Shown here piece after piece: positions 15,669 through 32,823 of a DNA stretch of 64,000 bases. Source of the stretch: Natrarchaeobaculum aegyptiacum. GTDB lineage: Archaea > Halobacteriota > Halobacteria > Halobacteriales > Natrialbaceae. Position numbers and translations under genes: made by a program. Positions within the stretch are counted from its first letter, which is position 1. Each line of letters begins with the position of its first letter. The stretch is taken from assembly GCF_002156705.1 (NCBI RefSeq), contig NZ_CP019893.1:1798001-1862000 (forward strand), read 5' to 3'. The notes under the pieces are model-generated. The model was not told where the DNA came from. It did no database searches and was given only the letters and a program-made list of their open reading frames with translations.

Positions 15669-15885
15669 TTACGTCTCGTCTCCCCTCGAGTCGTCTCCCC
15701 TCGAGTCGTCTCCTGTCGTCTCACCCGGAATCTCGGCGTCGTCGGGGAGCAGGAGTCGTCGCTCGGTGTATGCGAGGCCGTTCTTCCGCCGGTTGCGTTT
15801 GCGCACTGCGACGCGGTTGTTCGAGCGCTCGAGGACGGCGTCGATCACCCTCGAGACCAGTTTCTTCGCGTCGGTGTCGCCGACG
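15669..15885 (-). pseudogene. Truncated copy of the 3' end of the coiled-coil gene at 17491-18663
   Basis: Translated on the minus strand, this stretch gives about 68 residues matching the C-terminus of the intact protein closely: DAKKLVSRVIDAVL, SNNRVAVRKRN, RKNGL-YTERRL, and an SRG-rich tail ending in ET before the stop. An in-frame TGA lies just upstream and nothing earlier in the gene is present, so it is a 5'-truncated relic. DNA downstream of the stop (about 15600-15668) is also similar to that at 17420-17490, so the copied unit included 3' flank. The rest of 15405-16022 shows no gene. Confidence 0.88.
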
Positions 15886-16022
15886 CCGCTGTTTCACTCG
15901 GCGAAATTACCCTCAGATAATCTGGTCACCGTCTTCCGGTCCGCTCTCTCCGTTCAGGATACGTTCACGTGGCGCGTCGTTGGGTGCCGTCCGGTCCTCC
16001 CAGCTCTTCCCTTCCACACGTG

Positions 16023-16074
16023 AGTGACACCAGTGACACACTAACTGTTATGACGTGGGATACAGTAGTGACAC
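16023..16074. promoter_or_regulatory. Three AGTGACAC direct repeats at the antitoxin start
   Basis: Perfect copies of AGTGACAC lie at 16023-16030, 16032-16039 and 16067-16074, on both sides of the antitoxin ATG (16050). Repeats placed like this are common operators for autoregulating toxin-antitoxin operons; binding is inferred. Confidence 0.4.
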
Positions 16075-16421
16075 CTGTGCCGATCGATATCGAGACGTTC
16101 GACGCGAGCTCCGAACACGAACTCACGGGAGAGACGAATGCAGAGCGAATCATCACGTTCCTGGCTCGAAACGATGACAAGGCGTTCACGCCCGCTGAAA
16201 TAGCCGACGGATCTGGTGTGAAGAAGGGATCGGTCAGTACTGTGTTGAGCCGACTCGAGGATAAACAACTGGTCCGGCATAAGGGTGAATACTGGGCAAT
16301 CGGAGACATGGACCGCGTTCGTGATGCATACGATTTCCACAGGACCGTTCAGCGATTGGACGACCAGTACGGTGACGAAGACCTCGAAGAGTGGCAGGAA
16401 CATGCAGCCGAGGATGCGTAG
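16050..16421 (+). CDS. Winged-helix antitoxin of an HTH/PemK-type pair
   Basis: The protein has 123 residues. The middle (about 30-82) is a MarR-like winged helix: AERIITFLARND (helix 1), TPAEIADGSGVKKGSVSTVLSRLEDK (HTH) and a short wing (VRHKGEYWAIGD). The acidic helical C-terminus (about 85-123) is the likely toxin-neutralising part. Its stop codon touches the toxin ATG without spacing, so the pair is one operon. ATG 16050 is chosen because the upstream extension is non-coding in character and holds operator-like repeats. Unlike AbrB- or RHH-type MazE, the DNA-binding part here is a winged helix. Confidence 0.72.
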   Translation: MTWDTVVTPVPIDIETFDASSEHELTGETNAERIITFLARNDDKAFTPAEIADGSGVKKGSVSTVLSRLEDKQLVRHKGEYWAIGDMDRVRDAYDFHRTVQRLDDQYGDEDLEEWQEHAAEDA

Positions 16422-16757
16422 ATGGAGTACGATCGAGGAGACGTCGTTATCGGCTACGACAAGTTCAAGGAAGAATCGGCTGGACGTCCGTTTTTGATCA
16501 TCAGCGACGAAGAGACACCATTTCACGGGGAACAGTACATCGTCCTCTCGCTCACAACACGAACGTGGTACAAGGACCGTCTCCCGATTGACGAATCCGA
16601 TTGGACCGACGGTGGCGCGCCACGATCGAGCTCGATCATGCCGTGGTCAGTGAACTCCATTAGCGCCACCGAAATCGACGTCAGACAGGGAACACTCAGG
16701 GAATCGATCGTCACGACTGCGACGGAACACCTCTCCGAGTACGTTATCGCTGATTGA
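16422..16757 (+). CDS. PemK/MazF-like toxin (putative endoribonuclease)
   Basis: The protein has 111 residues and the layout of the CcdB/PemK fold: N-terminal RGDVVIGYDKF-(x)-GRPFLIIS strand pair, a central VLSLTTRTW-K, a Ser/Pro loop (PRSSSIMPWSV) and a final helix. Family members cleave mRNA. The last sense codons and the TGA lie at the left boundary of the adjacent IS200/IS605-like element, so the original C-terminus may have been altered by that insertion. Confidence 0.68.
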   Translation: MEYDRGDVVIGYDKFKEESAGRPFLIISDEETPFHGEQYIVLSLTTRTWYKDRLPIDESDWTDGGAPRSSSIMPWSVNSISATEIDVRQGTLRESIVTTATEHLSEYVIAD

Positions 16758-17262
16758 CATCCTCCTCCGCGTAAACGCGGAGGAATCCCGAGCGGTGGGA
16801 GTTTCAGGTTTCCAGTCCAACCGGCGGACTACCACACCTTTCGGGCGCGGGTAGTCCCACAGTCTCGGTGTGGTGGACTGCTGGCCATGCCAAGTGGCCG
16901 TTACCCCTATCCTCGACCCTGTTTGGCGTCCCGGTGTTGTTTTTGCCACAGGGACGCCAGCAGGTGTCAGCAGAGTCGGGGGTATCGTCGTGCTCGCTTC
17001 GAGCAGTCGGCACGTTGGCACACCCTTCGGAGATGTGGCGTTCACGGACTGCTCTTTCGGATATTGTCTCATTACGTGGGTGGACAGGCCACCTCCGCAG
17101 GACGGTTCGGAATCCGCTCCGTTCCGACCAACTCCTACTTTCCAGAAGAACGGCCTGTGACTTAAATATCGCCGTGAGAAACTCGGCGAAGCAGCTGAAC
17201 GGTGGGTTATGACCACAAGTGACGGCGCGTATCCACGGCCTGAAGACCGTGGTATTGCGCCT
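16751..17262. mobile_element. Gutted IS200/IS605-like element (no intact tnpB)
   Basis: The left boundary has GATTGACATCCTCC followed by a perfect 8-bp stem with TAAA loop (16764-16771/16776-16783) and GGAATCC; the same signature ends the tnpB element at 31411. The other boundary has a CCACGG...CCGTGG hairpin (17233-17252) with a central TGAA, matching in layout the hairpin at 33000-33019. The roughly 460 bp between the ends holds only open frames of unusual composition and no recognisable TnpB motif, so it is a deletion derivative or a MITE-like passenger. The rest of 17263-17490 shows no gene. Confidence 0.65.
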
Positions 17263-17490: not shown

Positions 17491-18663
17491 TTACGTCTCT
17501 TCGCCACTCGAGCCTTCTCCACTCGAGCCTTCTCCCCTCGAGCCTTCTCCCCTCGAGTCGTCTGTTGTCGTCTCGCCCGGAATCTCGACGTCGGCGGGGA
17601 GTACGAGTCTCCGTTCGGTGTACTCGAGGCCGTTCTTCCGCTGATTTCGTTTGCGGACTGCGACGCGGTTGTTCGACAGGTCGAGAACGGCGTCGATCAC
17701 CCTCGAGACGAGTTTCTTCGCGTAGGTATCGCTGATGCCGGGTTCCTGTCTGCGAATCCAGTGTTTGAGATCGCTGGCTGTGACGTACTCCGCGATGTCC
17801 TTGCAGCCGGGCTCCCACGGGTCATCACCGACGCTCGGATCGGTTCGGGCCTGCCAGAGTTTCGCGGCGAGGCGCGTCGGTAACGCGTTCGCCGCCGAGC
17901 GCAACATCTCGTCGTCCATCCGGGCCAGTTGCTGAATCGGCAGGAGGTCGCCATAGGCGAGTGTGACGGACCCTCCACGCTCGAGCGGGTCGGCCTGCTC
18001 CGGTAATCGGTAGTATTGCCGCCCGTCGTCCTTCCGGATTCGCTCGAGTCGGTTCTCGGGTACCTCGACGGTGTCCACGTCGACGGTCGCTGCGAGCAGG
18101 TGGGCTCCCTTCTCGAGTTCGCGGGACTGGAGTTCGGCGATCCGGTCTTTGTTGGCCGCGAGCTTGCGTTCGTGGGCTGTGAGGCGGGCCTCGATGGGGT
18201 CCGGGTCTGTGGGGGTGGTCTGGTCGTGGGTGGTGTGGGTCTCGTCGGGTTCGTCGGTCTGGTGGGTTTCGGTGGTCTCGTCGGGTTCGTTGGCCTCGAG
18301 CCCGTCCAGCCGGTCGACCGTGGTCGACAGCTGCGTCTCGAGCTGGGTGACGGTCTGCTCGAGGGTGGTGAGGCGGTCGTGGTCGTCGTGGTCCTGATCG
18401 GATCGTGGTGCGTCCGCTCGAGTCCCCTCACCCTCGAGTCGGTCGCGATCGGTTCGGGCTGCCTGCTGATCGGCCTCGAGTCGTTCGACTCGAACCACCA
18501 GTTCGTCGACTCGCCTCGTCAGATCGTCCAGCGCGGTCAGCAAGTGCTCGAGTGACGCCGACTGGGTGTGGTGCTCGCGTGGCTGGTGGTCATGCTCGCG
18601 CTCGGCTCTGGGTTCGGATTCAGGCGGCTGGCGTGGTGACTCCTCGTCGTCTCCGTCACTCAT
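17491..18663 (-). CDS. Acidic coiled-coil protein with predicted C-terminal winged-helix domain, unknown function
   Basis: The protein has 390 residues (ATG 18663; ATG 18669 is possible). Order: acidic, disordered N-terminus (1-35); heptad-rich coiled coils (about 38-75, 95-125 and 165-200) separated by Thr/Asp/Glu linkers; then a folded region (about 205-360) including DIAEYVTASDLKHWIRRQEP, a KKLVSRVIDAVL helix and a basic strand pair (RVAVRKRNQRKNGL...YTERRLVLP) that looks like the recognition part and wing of a winged helix; then a Gly/Ser/Glu tail. It overlaps the stop of the upstream partner by 8 nt, so they are coupled. A decayed copy of its 3' end lies at 15669. Function not recognised; DNA binding is inferred. 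Confidence 0.78.
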   Translation of the reverse strand: MSDGDDEESPRQPPESEPRAEREHDHQPREHHTQSASLEHLLTALDDLTRRVDELVVRVERLEADQQAARTDRDRLEGEGTRADAPRSDQDHDDHDRLTTLEQTVTQLETQLSTTVDRLDGLEANEPDETTETHQTDEPDETHTTHDQTTPTDPDPIEARLTAHERKLAANKDRIAELQSRELEKGAHLLAATVDVDTVEVPENRLERIRKDDGRQYYRLPEQADPLERGGSVTLAYGDLLPIQQLARMDDEMLRSAANALPTRLAAKLWQARTDPSVGDDPWEPGCKDIAEYVTASDLKHWIRRQEPGISDTYAKKLVSRVIDAVLDLSNNRVAVRKRNQRKNGLEYTERRLVLPADVEIPGETTTDDSRGEGSRGEGSSGEGSSGEET

Positions 18664-19192
18664 CGTCATCACCGCTACGGGTTGGCTCGCTCGAGTCTGT
18701 GAGTGAGTCGGCTGGGTTGGTGGGTGAGTGGTCGCTCGAGTCGGCTGGGTCAGTGGGTGAGTGGTCGCTCGAGTCGGCTGGGTCAGTGGGTGAGTGGTCG
18801 CTCGAGTCGGCTGGGTCAGTGGGTGAGTGGCCGCTCGAGTCGGCTGGGTCAGTGGGTGAGTGGCCGCTCGAGTCGCTGGTCGAATTCGCTGTCGACCCGT
18901 CACCCGGTCGGTACGAAATCGCCCCCTCCGGGCCGAGCACCGTCAACCCGACCTGACTCGCCTCCGCCCTGATCTGGAGCAGGTGTCGGCGGACTGCCTG
19001 TCGCTCCCGATCGGACAGGTCGTCGATCGCGTCGTCTTCGGGGGCCGGGGCCTCGAGCGCCGCGAGCAAGGTACTGGTCAGGGCGTCGACCTGCTCGAGG
19101 TGACTGTGAATCAGTTCGGGGGTGGGGTGGTCTCGAGTCGGTGCGTCCGGTCGGTCGGGGCTTTGATTACCCCGTGAATCGTCGTTGGACAT
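18656..19192 (-). CDS. Repeat-tailed acidic protein, partner of the coiled-coil gene, unknown function
   Basis: The protein has 178 residues, first gene of a two-gene operon. After an acidic start there is a helical core (about 22-85) with ELIHSHLEQVDALTSTLLAAL and LSDRERQAVRRHLLQIRAEA, a short strand segment (VGLTVLGPEGAISY), then five 11-residue repeats SS(G/D)HSPT(D/N)PAD and a Ser/Asp tail. The core could form a helical hairpin for oligomerisation. The stop overlaps the next start. A relic of its N-terminus lies at 20200-20275, in the same orientation. Confidence 0.75.
   Translation of the reverse strand: MSNDDSRGNQSPDRPDAPTRDHPTPELIHSHLEQVDALTSTLLAALEAPAPEDDAIDDLSDRERQAVRRHLLQIRAEASQVGLTVLGPEGAISYRPGDGSTANSTSDSSGHSPTDPADSSGHSPTDPADSSDHSPTDPADSSDHSPTDPADSSDHSPTNPADSLTDSSEPTRSGDDDE
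18707..18871 (-). repeat. Five tandem 33-bp in-frame repeats
   Basis: Five near-identical 33-bp units encode SS(G/D)HSPT(D/N)PAD at residues 108-162 of the gene at 18656-19192. They are contiguous with no unique spacers, so this is a coding minisatellite and not a CRISPR. Confidence 0.94.
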
Positions 19193-19435
19193 GGCTTCCG
19201 TAGGTGCGTTACGGGAGCTGTGGCAGGGGGTGCGCTACCACCACCCTGCTATTCTGCGGACAATCTCGAGTGATCAGTCCGAAGTATCCCGTTGGCCTGT
19301 ATTGTATTCTGCTCTACAAAAAACTATTCTATAAGCAGTTTGGAAAACCTATACAGTCGCTAAAGCAACCTTATAGCTGTTAGGATCTCTCTTCTTGCGT
19401 ACTTTCTTTGAACACTGCTTTACATAGCTAGAGAG

Positions 19436-19696
19436 ATGCGAAAGCGAGCCGACTGGATGACCCGGACGGACGACGAGATACTCGAGTACCTTGACGAGCA
19501 GGGTGCAGGCACTCCCAAGGCGATCGCCGATGCGATCGATCGAAATAACCAGTACATCGGGGTCCGGTGTCGGACGCTCGCTTCCTACGGATTGGTGGAG
19601 AAACCGTCTCGAGGATTCTACGTGATTACCGACGACGGTCGTTCCTATCTGGAAGGCGAACTCGATGCCAGCAAACTCACCGAAAGCGAGCAGTAA
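19436..19696 (+). CDS. Small winged-helix DNA-binding protein 1
   Basis: The protein has 86 residues, almost all one winged helix of the haloarchaeal phage PhiH1-repressor-like/MarR type: WMTRTDDEILEYL (helix 1), a TPKAIADAIDRNNQYIGVRCRTLASYGLV helix-turn-helix, and a FYVITDDGRSYLEGELD wing and last helix. First of four related genes in a row. It is divergent from the unknown two-gene operon, with a 243-bp AT-rich gap between the starts, so control of that operon is a reasonable guess. Confidence 0.8.
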   Translation: MRKRADWMTRTDDEILEYLDEQGAGTPKAIADAIDRNNQYIGVRCRTLASYGLVEKPSRGFYVITDDGRSYLEGELDASKLTESEQ

Positions 19697-19807
19697 CTGC
19701 TCTCTCAACGGGTGCTTGCGTAACGACCTGCAGTGGAAATCGCCGGCGAGCAGATACACTCGAGAAGTAAAACGTATCTTCTGGTCGACCGCAGCTACGG
19801 CTAACGC

Positions 19808-20116
19808 ATGCGAGCCCGTGTCTCGTGGATGAATCAGGCAGACGATGCCATCCTCGAGTACCTTCAGGAACTCGAGACGGAACCGGGCCACCGAATTTCG
19901 CTGCCACCAACTACCGTCTGGTACAACCTCGTCGAACAACTCGGCGTACTCGACCGTAGCCAGAACACGATCGCCCGTCGCATGAACATCCTCTCCGAGG
20001 CTGGCCTGCTCGAGAAAACCGACGAAAAACGCGGCTACTACCGACTCACGGATCGCGGCATCGCATATCTCGAGGGCGAACTCGAGGCTGCTGACCTCGA
20101 ACTCGAGGACGACTGA
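19808..20116 (+). CDS. Small winged-helix DNA-binding protein 2
   Basis: The protein has 102 residues with the same plan as its neighbours: VSWMNQADDAILEYLQEL, a longer insertion (about 23-42, GHRISLPPTTVWYNL), the helix-turn-helix with NTIARRMNILSEAGLLEK, and a YYRLTDRGIAYLEGELEAADLE wing and tail. The insertion before the helix-turn-helix sets it apart from the other three. The 3' flank resembles that of the third copy. Confidence 0.8.
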   Translation: MRARVSWMNQADDAILEYLQELETEPGHRISLPPTTVWYNLVEQLGVLDRSQNTIARRMNILSEAGLLEKTDEKRGYYRLTDRGIAYLEGELEAADLELEDD

Positions 20117-20199
20117 TTCTGGACGCTGTCTCGAGAGTGCGAATGGCTGCTGAGTCGGAACCCACTGACCGTGGTGTAGGCTGAAATAGACTCGAGTCA

Positions 20200-20275
20200 G
20201 CGCGTCGAACTCGAGTGCTGGCAACAGGCATGGTCTGTCGGGGGTTCCGTTCTCCCGTGAGTCGTCGCTTGACAT
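20200..20275 (-). pseudogene. Relic of the 5' end of the repeat-tailed gene (18656-19192)
   Basis: From ATG 20275 on the minus strand the reading MSSDDSRENGTPDRP resembles the first 15 residues of the intact protein (MSNDDSRGNQSPDRP), followed after a deletion by ALEFDALTRVYF against LEQVDALTSTLL. The flank before the ATG (CATGGCTTC... on the plus strand) also matches. Nothing of the core or the repeats follows. The remaining parts of 20117-20505 hold no gene apart from the duplicated upstream element. Confidence 0.7.
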
Positions 20276-20357
20276 GGCTTCTGTCGGCTGGATGCGGGAG
20301 CTACCTGCGGACTCGGGAGCTACCACCGGTCTGCGTTCTGGGGCTCGTCGCCGTGGC

Positions 20358-20422
20358 GAGTCACGGATAGCTTCCGTAGTGGCGACTATATTCTCCACTG
20401 ACATAAGTTTTGACAACGTACG
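20358..20422 (+). repeat. Duplicated upstream element, copy A
   Basis: This 65-bp stretch upstream of the third winged-helix gene matches copy B (20861-20925) at about 58 of 65 positions, including a block TTCTCCACTGACATAAG that is identical in both. It contains TATA-like and TTTTGAC segments and probably carries the promoter or an operator; weaker similarity extends about 35 bp further upstream. Confidence 0.85.
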
Positions 20423-20505
20423 ATGTTATTTTAGCGTATCGATTGGGCATATTGCTCTGCAGATAGTGCTGCTTTTTCTACTCCGATGCTGGCTATTCTC
20501 GAACG

Positions 20506-20763
20506 ATGGTCGAGCGGGTTTCGTGGATGGCACCTGTCGATTACGAGATCATGCTCTTTTTCGACGAGTATCCGATTCTGGTCTCCCCGAAGATACTCGC
20601 CGTCAATATCGACTACGATCGCCACTACGTCAGTCGACGATGCAGTGCACTTTCGGATGCTGGTCTTCTGGAACCCGTCGACACTGGCCTCTACCAGCTT
20701 ACCGACACCGGCCGCGACTATCTCGAGGGCGACCTTGACGTGTGCGAACTCGAGGACGACTGA
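20506..20763 (+). CDS. Small winged-helix DNA-binding protein 3
   Basis: The protein has 85 residues. VERVSWMAPVDYEIMLFFDEYP opens the fold; VSPKILAVNIDYDRHYVSRRCSALSDAGLL is the helix-turn-helix; LYQLTDTGRDYLEGDLDVCELEDD is the wing and acidic end. It is the closest paralogue of the gene at 21011 at both DNA and protein level, and both follow copies of the same 65-bp upstream element. Confidence 0.82.
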   Translation: MVERVSWMAPVDYEIMLFFDEYPILVSPKILAVNIDYDRHYVSRRCSALSDAGLLEPVDTGLYQLTDTGRDYLEGDLDVCELEDD

Positions 20764-20860
20764 TTCCGGTCGCCGTCTCGAGGGTGTGAGTGACCGTCGA
20801 TCCATCATCGGGAGTCATTGTTGCTACCACTGGCCCACTGCTGGAACCCATCGCCGCAGA

Positions 20861-20925
20861 GAGTCGCGTATAGCTTCCGTAGTGTCGACGATGTTCTCCA
20901 CTGACATAAGTTTTGACTACATACG
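20861..20925 (+). repeat. Duplicated upstream element, copy B
   Basis: Second copy of the 65-bp element at 20358-20422, preceding the fourth winged-helix gene. Together with the similar coding sequence it shows that gene and control region were duplicated as one unit. Confidence 0.85.
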
Positions 20926-21010
20926 TCGTTCTCACGGAACTACGAAAGTCGTCTACTACTCTCTGGATACTACTGATTTTTCCGTTCAGCTACCGGCACA
21001 TCGTGAATAG

Positions 21011-21274
21011 ATGGTCGAGCGGGTTTCGTGGATGGCTCCAGTGGACTACGAGATCATGCTGTTCTTCGACGAGCACGCCATTCAGGTCTCCCCGCGAGTC
21101 CTCGCCGCAAACATCGACTACGACCGACAGTACGTGAGCAAGCGCTGCCGGGTGCTTTCCGAGGCAGACCTTCTGGAATCTGTCCAAACTGGCCTCTACC
21201 AGCTTACCGACACCGGACACGACTATCTCGAGGGCGAGCTTGACGTGCGCGAACTCGAGGACGACGAGGACTGA
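21011..21274 (+). CDS. Small winged-helix DNA-binding protein 4
   Basis: The protein has 87 residues, nearly identical in its first 20 residues to copy 3 (VERVSWMAPVDYEIMLFFDE). The helix-turn-helix has VSPRVLAANIDYDRQYVSKRCRVLSEADLL, followed by the LYQLTDTGHDYLEGELDVREL wing and an acidic tail. Divergence is concentrated around the recognition helix and its following turn, so the copies may read different operators or form mixed dimers. Confidence 0.82.
   Translation: MVERVSWMAPVDYEIMLFFDEHAIQVSPRVLAANIDYDRQYVSKRCRVLSEADLLESVQTGLYQLTDTGHDYLEGELDVRELEDDED

Positions 21275-31498: not shown

Positions 31499-31500
<2 letters not shown>
31411..31500 (-). ncRNA. Putative omega/reRNA end of the tnpB element
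   Basis: In solo tnpB elements the guide RNA covers the end of tnpB and the right end of the element. Here the minus strand beyond the tnpB stop reads to a 6-bp stem with TTTA loop (31425-31440) and stops at the GATGTCAAT boundary. Exact RNA ends cannot be seen; the guide would be the DNA just past 31411. Confidence 0.4.
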
Positions 31501-32770
<1,270 letters not shown>

Positions 32771-32823
32771 CAACTATCTCTTGTGGCGTAAAACACATAA
32801 CTGTGTGGTTTGTGTGATTGTGT

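Follow-up and report, generated by a model that had tools for sequence, protein, structure and literature searches.

We analysed a divergent gene cluster (positions 17491-21274) in a 64-kb stretch of the Natrarchaeobaculum aegyptiacum genome (contig NZ_CP019893.1, 1,798,001 to 1,862,000; hereafter "the window," with position 1 as its first letter), in which an operon of two genes, ORF1 and ORF2, faces four small winged-helix (WH) genes, WH1 to WH4. The reading that we prefer, at a probability of about 0.68, is that a control unit of a mobile element lies here, its front end of the type found in SNJ2 (a betapleolipovirus) and its payload different: in dozens of related units, as here, the integrase is absent, and ORF1 and a coiled-coil protein fill the operon. 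What is new is the RNA leader family that forms part of this front end, together with the fact that it is coupled to an abundant operon without an integrase; the SNJ2 literature may already mention the leader.

WH1 and ORF1 are separated by ~240 bp that contain a strongly conserved non-coding block. This element, located in 19193-19435 and missed by an earlier note on this DNA, is an RNA leader that SNJ2-type integrase operons also have. A covariance model of ~105 nt (R1) places it at 19190-19292 on the minus strand (64.8 bits, E 1.6e-15), ending exactly at the ORF1 ATG (19190-19192). Read along that strand, it comprises the 5' strand of P0 (19285-19292), the side hairpins P1 (19254-19284) and P2 (19223-19249), a strand shared by P0 and P3 (19210-19218), and P3 as a whole (19194-19218). 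The shared central strand (GCUCCCGUA) can form P0 with the 5' end of the RNA or, alternatively, P3 with the bases immediately preceding the start codon. Single-sequence folds gave P1-P2-P3 or P0 enclosing P1 and P2, and the P0 and P3 folds are nearly isoenergetic (median difference 0.4 kcal/mol). A TATA-like element of the ORF1-ORF2 operon lies at 19314-19324 (minus), and across 77 leaders the A/T content peaks at positions -30 to -28 relative to leader base 1; given this spacing, which serves to place the start site, the transcript should start with P0.

Comparative analysis showed, at the level of the aligned sequences, that evolution conserves both alternative pairings, P0 and P3. The alignment held 82 distinct leaders and followed a covariance model fitted to P1-P3 and not to P0; its cells are sequences, not independent events. 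With P3 in the structure, 89.5% of cells were paired (79.0% when shuffled, 27.7-41.6% when slid), 20 pairs had changed on both sides (12.1 when shuffled) and 245 cells were compensatory (75.4 when shuffled); P0 alone had 25 compensatory cells, against 5.7 in the shuffles. Alignment column 119 pairs with both column 4 (P0) and column 137 (P3) in 82/82 rows, and both helices have changed on both sides in 13 rows, 11 of them from G-C to C-G and 2 to A-U. P1 and P2 covary strongly, and the P1 hairpin was more stable than its shuffles (p<0.05) in 20/29 sequences with unrelated letters. A further hairpin, P4 (19156-19174, minus), spans ORF1 codons 7-13 and shows compensatory changes across loci; it covaries at two pairs, for which the observed count was reached in 0 and 6 of 2000 shuffles. 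A hairpin in the coding region accounts for unrelated proteins sharing the start MSNDDSRGNESPDR, and for the same stretch being a separate 35-codon reading frame in units with a mini-TnpB gene (described below). In attenuators and translational riboswitches, too, a single strand has a choice of two covarying partners that exclude each other, and one of the two covers the start-codon region; unlike the known two-state leaders, this one is haloarchaeal, extends into the coding region as P4 and has no counterpart in Rfam 15 by covariance-model search.

R1 had matches in 154/391 Halobacteria genomes (50/86 genera), and in 100/125 Natrialbaceae genomes. In the pleolipovirus SNJ2, the leader (E 2.6e-14) stands directly before orf3-orf2-integrase, and in the Halfgib1 virus (E 2.2e-13) directly before the integrase operon. 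It was not found in the stretches examined of HHPV4, Harhisp1, and BJ1, and IMG/VR held no exact leader pattern, exact patterns being a weak test for so variable an element. A same-strand downstream integrase (SNJ2-, Harhisp1-, HHPV4- or Halfgib1-related) was present in 26/75 sampled leader loci, a biased rate in that these loci were taken from high-scoring matches.

The resemblance to SNJ2 extends beyond the leader itself. The SNJ2 integration module (Orf4 regulator, orf3-orf2-integrase; NC_074646) has a divergent winged-helix regulator, as does the window locus; a region of ~235 bp, including the leader with P0, P3, and P4, is common to both, and both have a coiled-coil protein in the operon and compact, overlapping genes. 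In the SNJ2 provirus orf1-3 are co-transcribed (PMC13107129), and the same study refers to orf4-orf10 as a validated region of lysogeny/lysis regulation. The integrase has two helper proteins, the coiled-coil Orf2 and the MarR-like Orf3 (PMC8371274). The payloads differ, however: Orf3 matches ORF1 only over the first 19 residues (those encoded by the RNA element) and is unrelated after them, while Orf2 has only a short coiled-coil match to ORF2 (E 4e-4) and lacks its large C-terminal domain. Unlike the SNJ2 module, the window unit has no integrase—no match to PF00589 (tyrosine integrase) was found in the window, the nearest on the contig being at 1885370—and, unlike SNJ2-type modules with their att site at a tRNA gene, no tRNA gene was found in the 64-kb window. 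The window unit thus resembles an SNJ2-type control module in how it would work, but it falls outside that group since it has neither the integrase nor the helper proteins. In a search for an empty site, SAHH was conserved in relatives and the DNA past SAHH was not, and hence no clean boundary of the insertion could be placed.

The same genome has a fourth leader copy with a CGCG core (L150:5273-5382, C1:1924272-1924381). Behind it come a frame of 36 codons and a stretch resembling SNJ2 Orf3, and ~1.9 kb further the opposite strand carries a tyrosine integrase. At four other loci (L139, L149, L155, and L156), a short frame (MIDNTHAGYKLPVR... or similar) and then a Harhisp1-like integrase come after the leader; the peptide coded by P4 is unlike the SNJ2 type there, and the hairpin is kept.

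The earlier note had described the operon as two coupled genes, one for a helical protein with a 33-bp repeat tail and one for a long coiled-coil protein, and this description was confirmed: ORF1 (18656-19192, minus; 178 aa, helical) and ORF2 (17491-18669, minus; 392 aa, with its ATG at 18669) overlap by 14 nt. ORF1 begins with ~18 codons that lie within the RNA element, continues with RLExIDxLTxxLL...RRHLREIRAE, and ends in a tandem repeat of 33 bp in 5.3 copies (97% match, 18705-18879). ORF2 is a coiled coil followed by a C-terminal domain predicted to be a winged helix, with a conserved domain core encoded at 17572-18177 (minus). The C-terminal winged helix that the note had proposed is supported by an AlphaFold2 model (mean pLDDT 83.6, with this domain mostly >90), although without a significant fold match; with helices and strands in the predicted order H-H-H-E-H-H-E-E, the domain reads as a winged helix. 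Profile searches of ORF1 and ORF2 against Pfam, NCBIfam, PHROGs, and PADLOC gave coiled-coil noise only (the anti-phage defence profiles of PADLOC included no credible match for either), and a PDB sequence search with the ORF2 alignment returned coiled-coil matches and nothing else, in keeping with the note's view that ORF2 belongs to no described family.

ORF2 is nevertheless abundant. Matches were found in 90/125 Natrialbaceae genomes, with up to 15 per genome, and in 92/391 Halobacteria genomes; 46 plasmids bear the gene, where its annotation is always "hypothetical protein." None was found in the phage records searched, and one related viral contig was found. Nearly all named best relatives come from Natrialbaceae, within which identity is mostly 59-66% over the aligned region; conservation is concentrated at residues ~160-380 while the coiled coil is variable, and among paralogues the C-terminal domain is still roughly 50-75% identical, with dozens of residues invariant. 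The layout around ORF2 recurs as well. In full-length ORF2 loci with a 4.5-kb flank, a divergent gene of the PHROG 2440 type (the family of WH1 to WH4, as detailed below) lay upstream in 73/86 and a same-strand one in 3/86, compared with 8/83 and 5/83 in the downstream control; the survey of other genomes that the note had proposed therefore did find co-occurrence of operon and repressor. An SNJ2-like integrase, on the other hand, accompanied ORF2 in only 1/88 loci (87/88 were without one).

The ORF1 slot varies among loci, being filled by a short helical ORF1, by a 240-aa TnpB-derived protein or by other small genes. The 240-aa gene occupies it in 21 loci (e.g., L112:6739-7458, on pNMAG01), all of them related loci outside the window. 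As in TnpB and Cas12f, its product has RuvC-like D/E/D motifs and a TNB zinc ribbon (Pfam E 5e-9); unlike them, it lacks the N-terminal half of TnpB and is fixed in an operon. From its sequence, this C-terminal-half protein is a candidate domesticated mini-TnpB. Tandem extra or truncated ORF2 copies occur at eight loci (L035, L043, L058, L064, L075, L078, L086, and L095), downstream of the intact ORF2, in the same orientation and separated by other genes; from these loci, ORF2 units seem to have inserted repeatedly into older units.

The window itself appears to preserve such a history. The four small winged-helix proteins divergent from the operon are real: WH1 (19436-19696, plus; 86 aa), WH2 (19808-20116, plus; 102 aa), WH3 (20506-20763, plus), and WH4 (21011-21274, plus) all match PHROG 2440 "transcriptional regulator" over the whole protein (E 5.7e-33, 1.8e-22, 8.7e-22, and 4.3e-25, respectively). 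WH1 and WH2 are PhiH1-repressor-like, and the phage relatives of the four are PhiH repR and the pleolipovirus "PhiH1-like repressors." As in PhiH, the repressor stands divergent beside an early-type operon; the PhiH operon and leader, however, are unlike those of the window. The phage-related system that the note had listed among its possibilities thus gains support, both from these matches and from the leader common to the SNJ2 integrase operon. The note's "private set of repressors" does not hold, as at least two of the four come from earlier units that have since decayed: WH3 is the repressor-like gene of an older unit, beside a relic leader at 20273-20377 (minus; R1 45.2 bits, E 2.8e-10), and WH4 is that of the oldest recognisable unit, beside a more decayed relic at 20803-20880 (minus; R1 18.1 bits, E 0.005). 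The decayed copies of both operon genes that it had reported nearby were likewise recovered. Below 20275, the first relic leader runs into a decayed ORF1 start of ~15 codons (MSSDDSRENGTPDRP), within an ORF at 19349-20416, and a 3' fragment of ORF2 from an older unit lies at ~15672-15896 (minus; residues ~308-382, 75-80% identity). Because relic leaders adjoin WH3 and WH4, we read the array as largely a stack of remnants from earlier copies of the whole unit. It may have arisen through the repeated landing of new units in old ones, in the course of which the older units would have lost their operons and left behind a repressor, a leader relic, and the far-side 3' end of ORF2.

How such a unit might operate can be outlined. 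The divergent repressor would be a first lock, holding the promoter off in the quiescent element, and the leader would be a second lock, on translation of the first gene: P3 would hide the start codon (low translation) and P0 would free it, so that ORF1 and ORF2 would be produced only when both locks are open. The leader might be flipped by a protein, by the ribosome on P4, by salt or by a metabolite. As to the function of ORF2, we infer that it could be an accessory acting on the DNA of the element independently of an integrase, whether by taking part in recombination, by maintaining copies or by interfering with related elements. Several observations weigh against the preferred reading of the unit. 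The leader was recognised in only 34/88 ORF2 loci, the other units having other middle genes and no detectable leader; ORF2 has no fold match at E<=0.001 (Foldseek against the PDB and viral models) and no known domain; and P3 is nearly invariant except at four positions, such that direct sequence recognition there is possible. In addition, haloarchaeal translation is described in a passage of PMC8241225 as not strictly Shine-Dalgarno-dependent, and hiding the start-codon region may therefore matter less than it does in bacteria.

One alternative is that the element acts as double-stranded DNA, with three half-sites (ACGGAAGC ... GCTCCCGT ... ACGGAAGC) that are operators of the divergent winged-helix repressor and repeats that change together since one protein reads them all. 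The P0 and P3 arms are indeed copies or inverted copies of one short motif, close to the promoter and almost invariant. Yet covariation is also seen in P1, P2, and the coding hairpin P4, none of which copies that motif; the P1 hairpin is kept with unrelated sequences, and all three motifs lie downstream of the promoter TATA. Nor do the core variants follow repressor type: the MRK..WMQNP type occurs with cores CGG (4) and CGC (3), and MRE types with CGG, CCG, and CGA. We consider operators distinctly unlikely, and favour the RNA reading of the element.

Other alternatives concern the unit rather than its leader. ORF1-ORF2 could be a satellite or an immunity module under control signals borrowed from proviruses; induction of a resident SNJ2-like provirus, or entry of a related virus, would switch it on to interfere with that provirus or virus. 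In its favour, the repressor family and leader are the same as those of integrase operons, many integrase-less copies per genome sit on chromosomes and megaplasmids, and some units carry the RuvC-type mini-TnpB in the same operon slot. The lack of a credible PADLOC match for either protein and the copies on plasmids with no provirus in view make this possible, if unlikely. A DNA-organising or partition system of integrated plasmids, the partition-like option of the earlier note, could draw on the coiled coil with a DNA-binding-type head, the two-gene operon and the plasmid-borne copies of ORF2; we regard it as very doubtful, as the operon has no ATPase partner (no ParA/Walker ATPase is present), matches reach up to 15 per genome with many of them chromosomal, and the front end is of the integration-module type. 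Truncated copies are so commonly stacked that the units might be thought non-functional debris, decayed proviruses of which only the front end and hitch-hiking genes are left. Against the conservation of the ORF2 C-terminal domain across paralogues and the maintained leader pairings, this seems highly improbable.

A mobile-element control unit with an SNJ2-type front end would have implications beyond this locus. Few structured regulatory leaders are known in haloarchaea, and here a ~105-nt leader with two alternative, covarying folds precedes integrase operons and related units in ~40% of sampled Halobacteria genomes, including SNJ2, a virus with working genetics. If the leader switches translation of integrase operons, it would add an RNA layer to the control of archaeal lysogeny, and one that is directly testable. 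It also gives a frame for the abundant, unannotated coiled-coil family and for the TnpB-derived mini-nuclease that shares its operon. The shared front end suggests a widespread and unrecognised control switch for archaeal mobile DNA. More tentatively, and with the odds still against it, a class-wide haloarchaeal RNA switch may time the integrase operons of temperate viruses, with a large integrase-less family (a coiled-coil DNA-binding protein together with either ORF1 or a mini-TnpB nuclease) having adopted the same switch as a means of responding to resident proviruses and of acting against or alongside them.

Between the decayed and the intact ORF2 copies, a helix-turn-helix (HTH) protein and a PemK/MazF-like protein are encoded at 16041-16757 (plus), likely a toxin-antitoxin pair; similar pairs occur near ORF2 at L074, L075, L091, and L107. 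The adjacent segment at 16763-16942 (minus) is a sot RNA-like remnant (RF02656, 48.3 bits, cut-off 88) without a tnpB gene, the sot RNA being one that belongs to haloarchaeal tnpB elements. Elsewhere in the window, at 31499-32773 (minus), there is a TnpB-family gene that is apparently intact.

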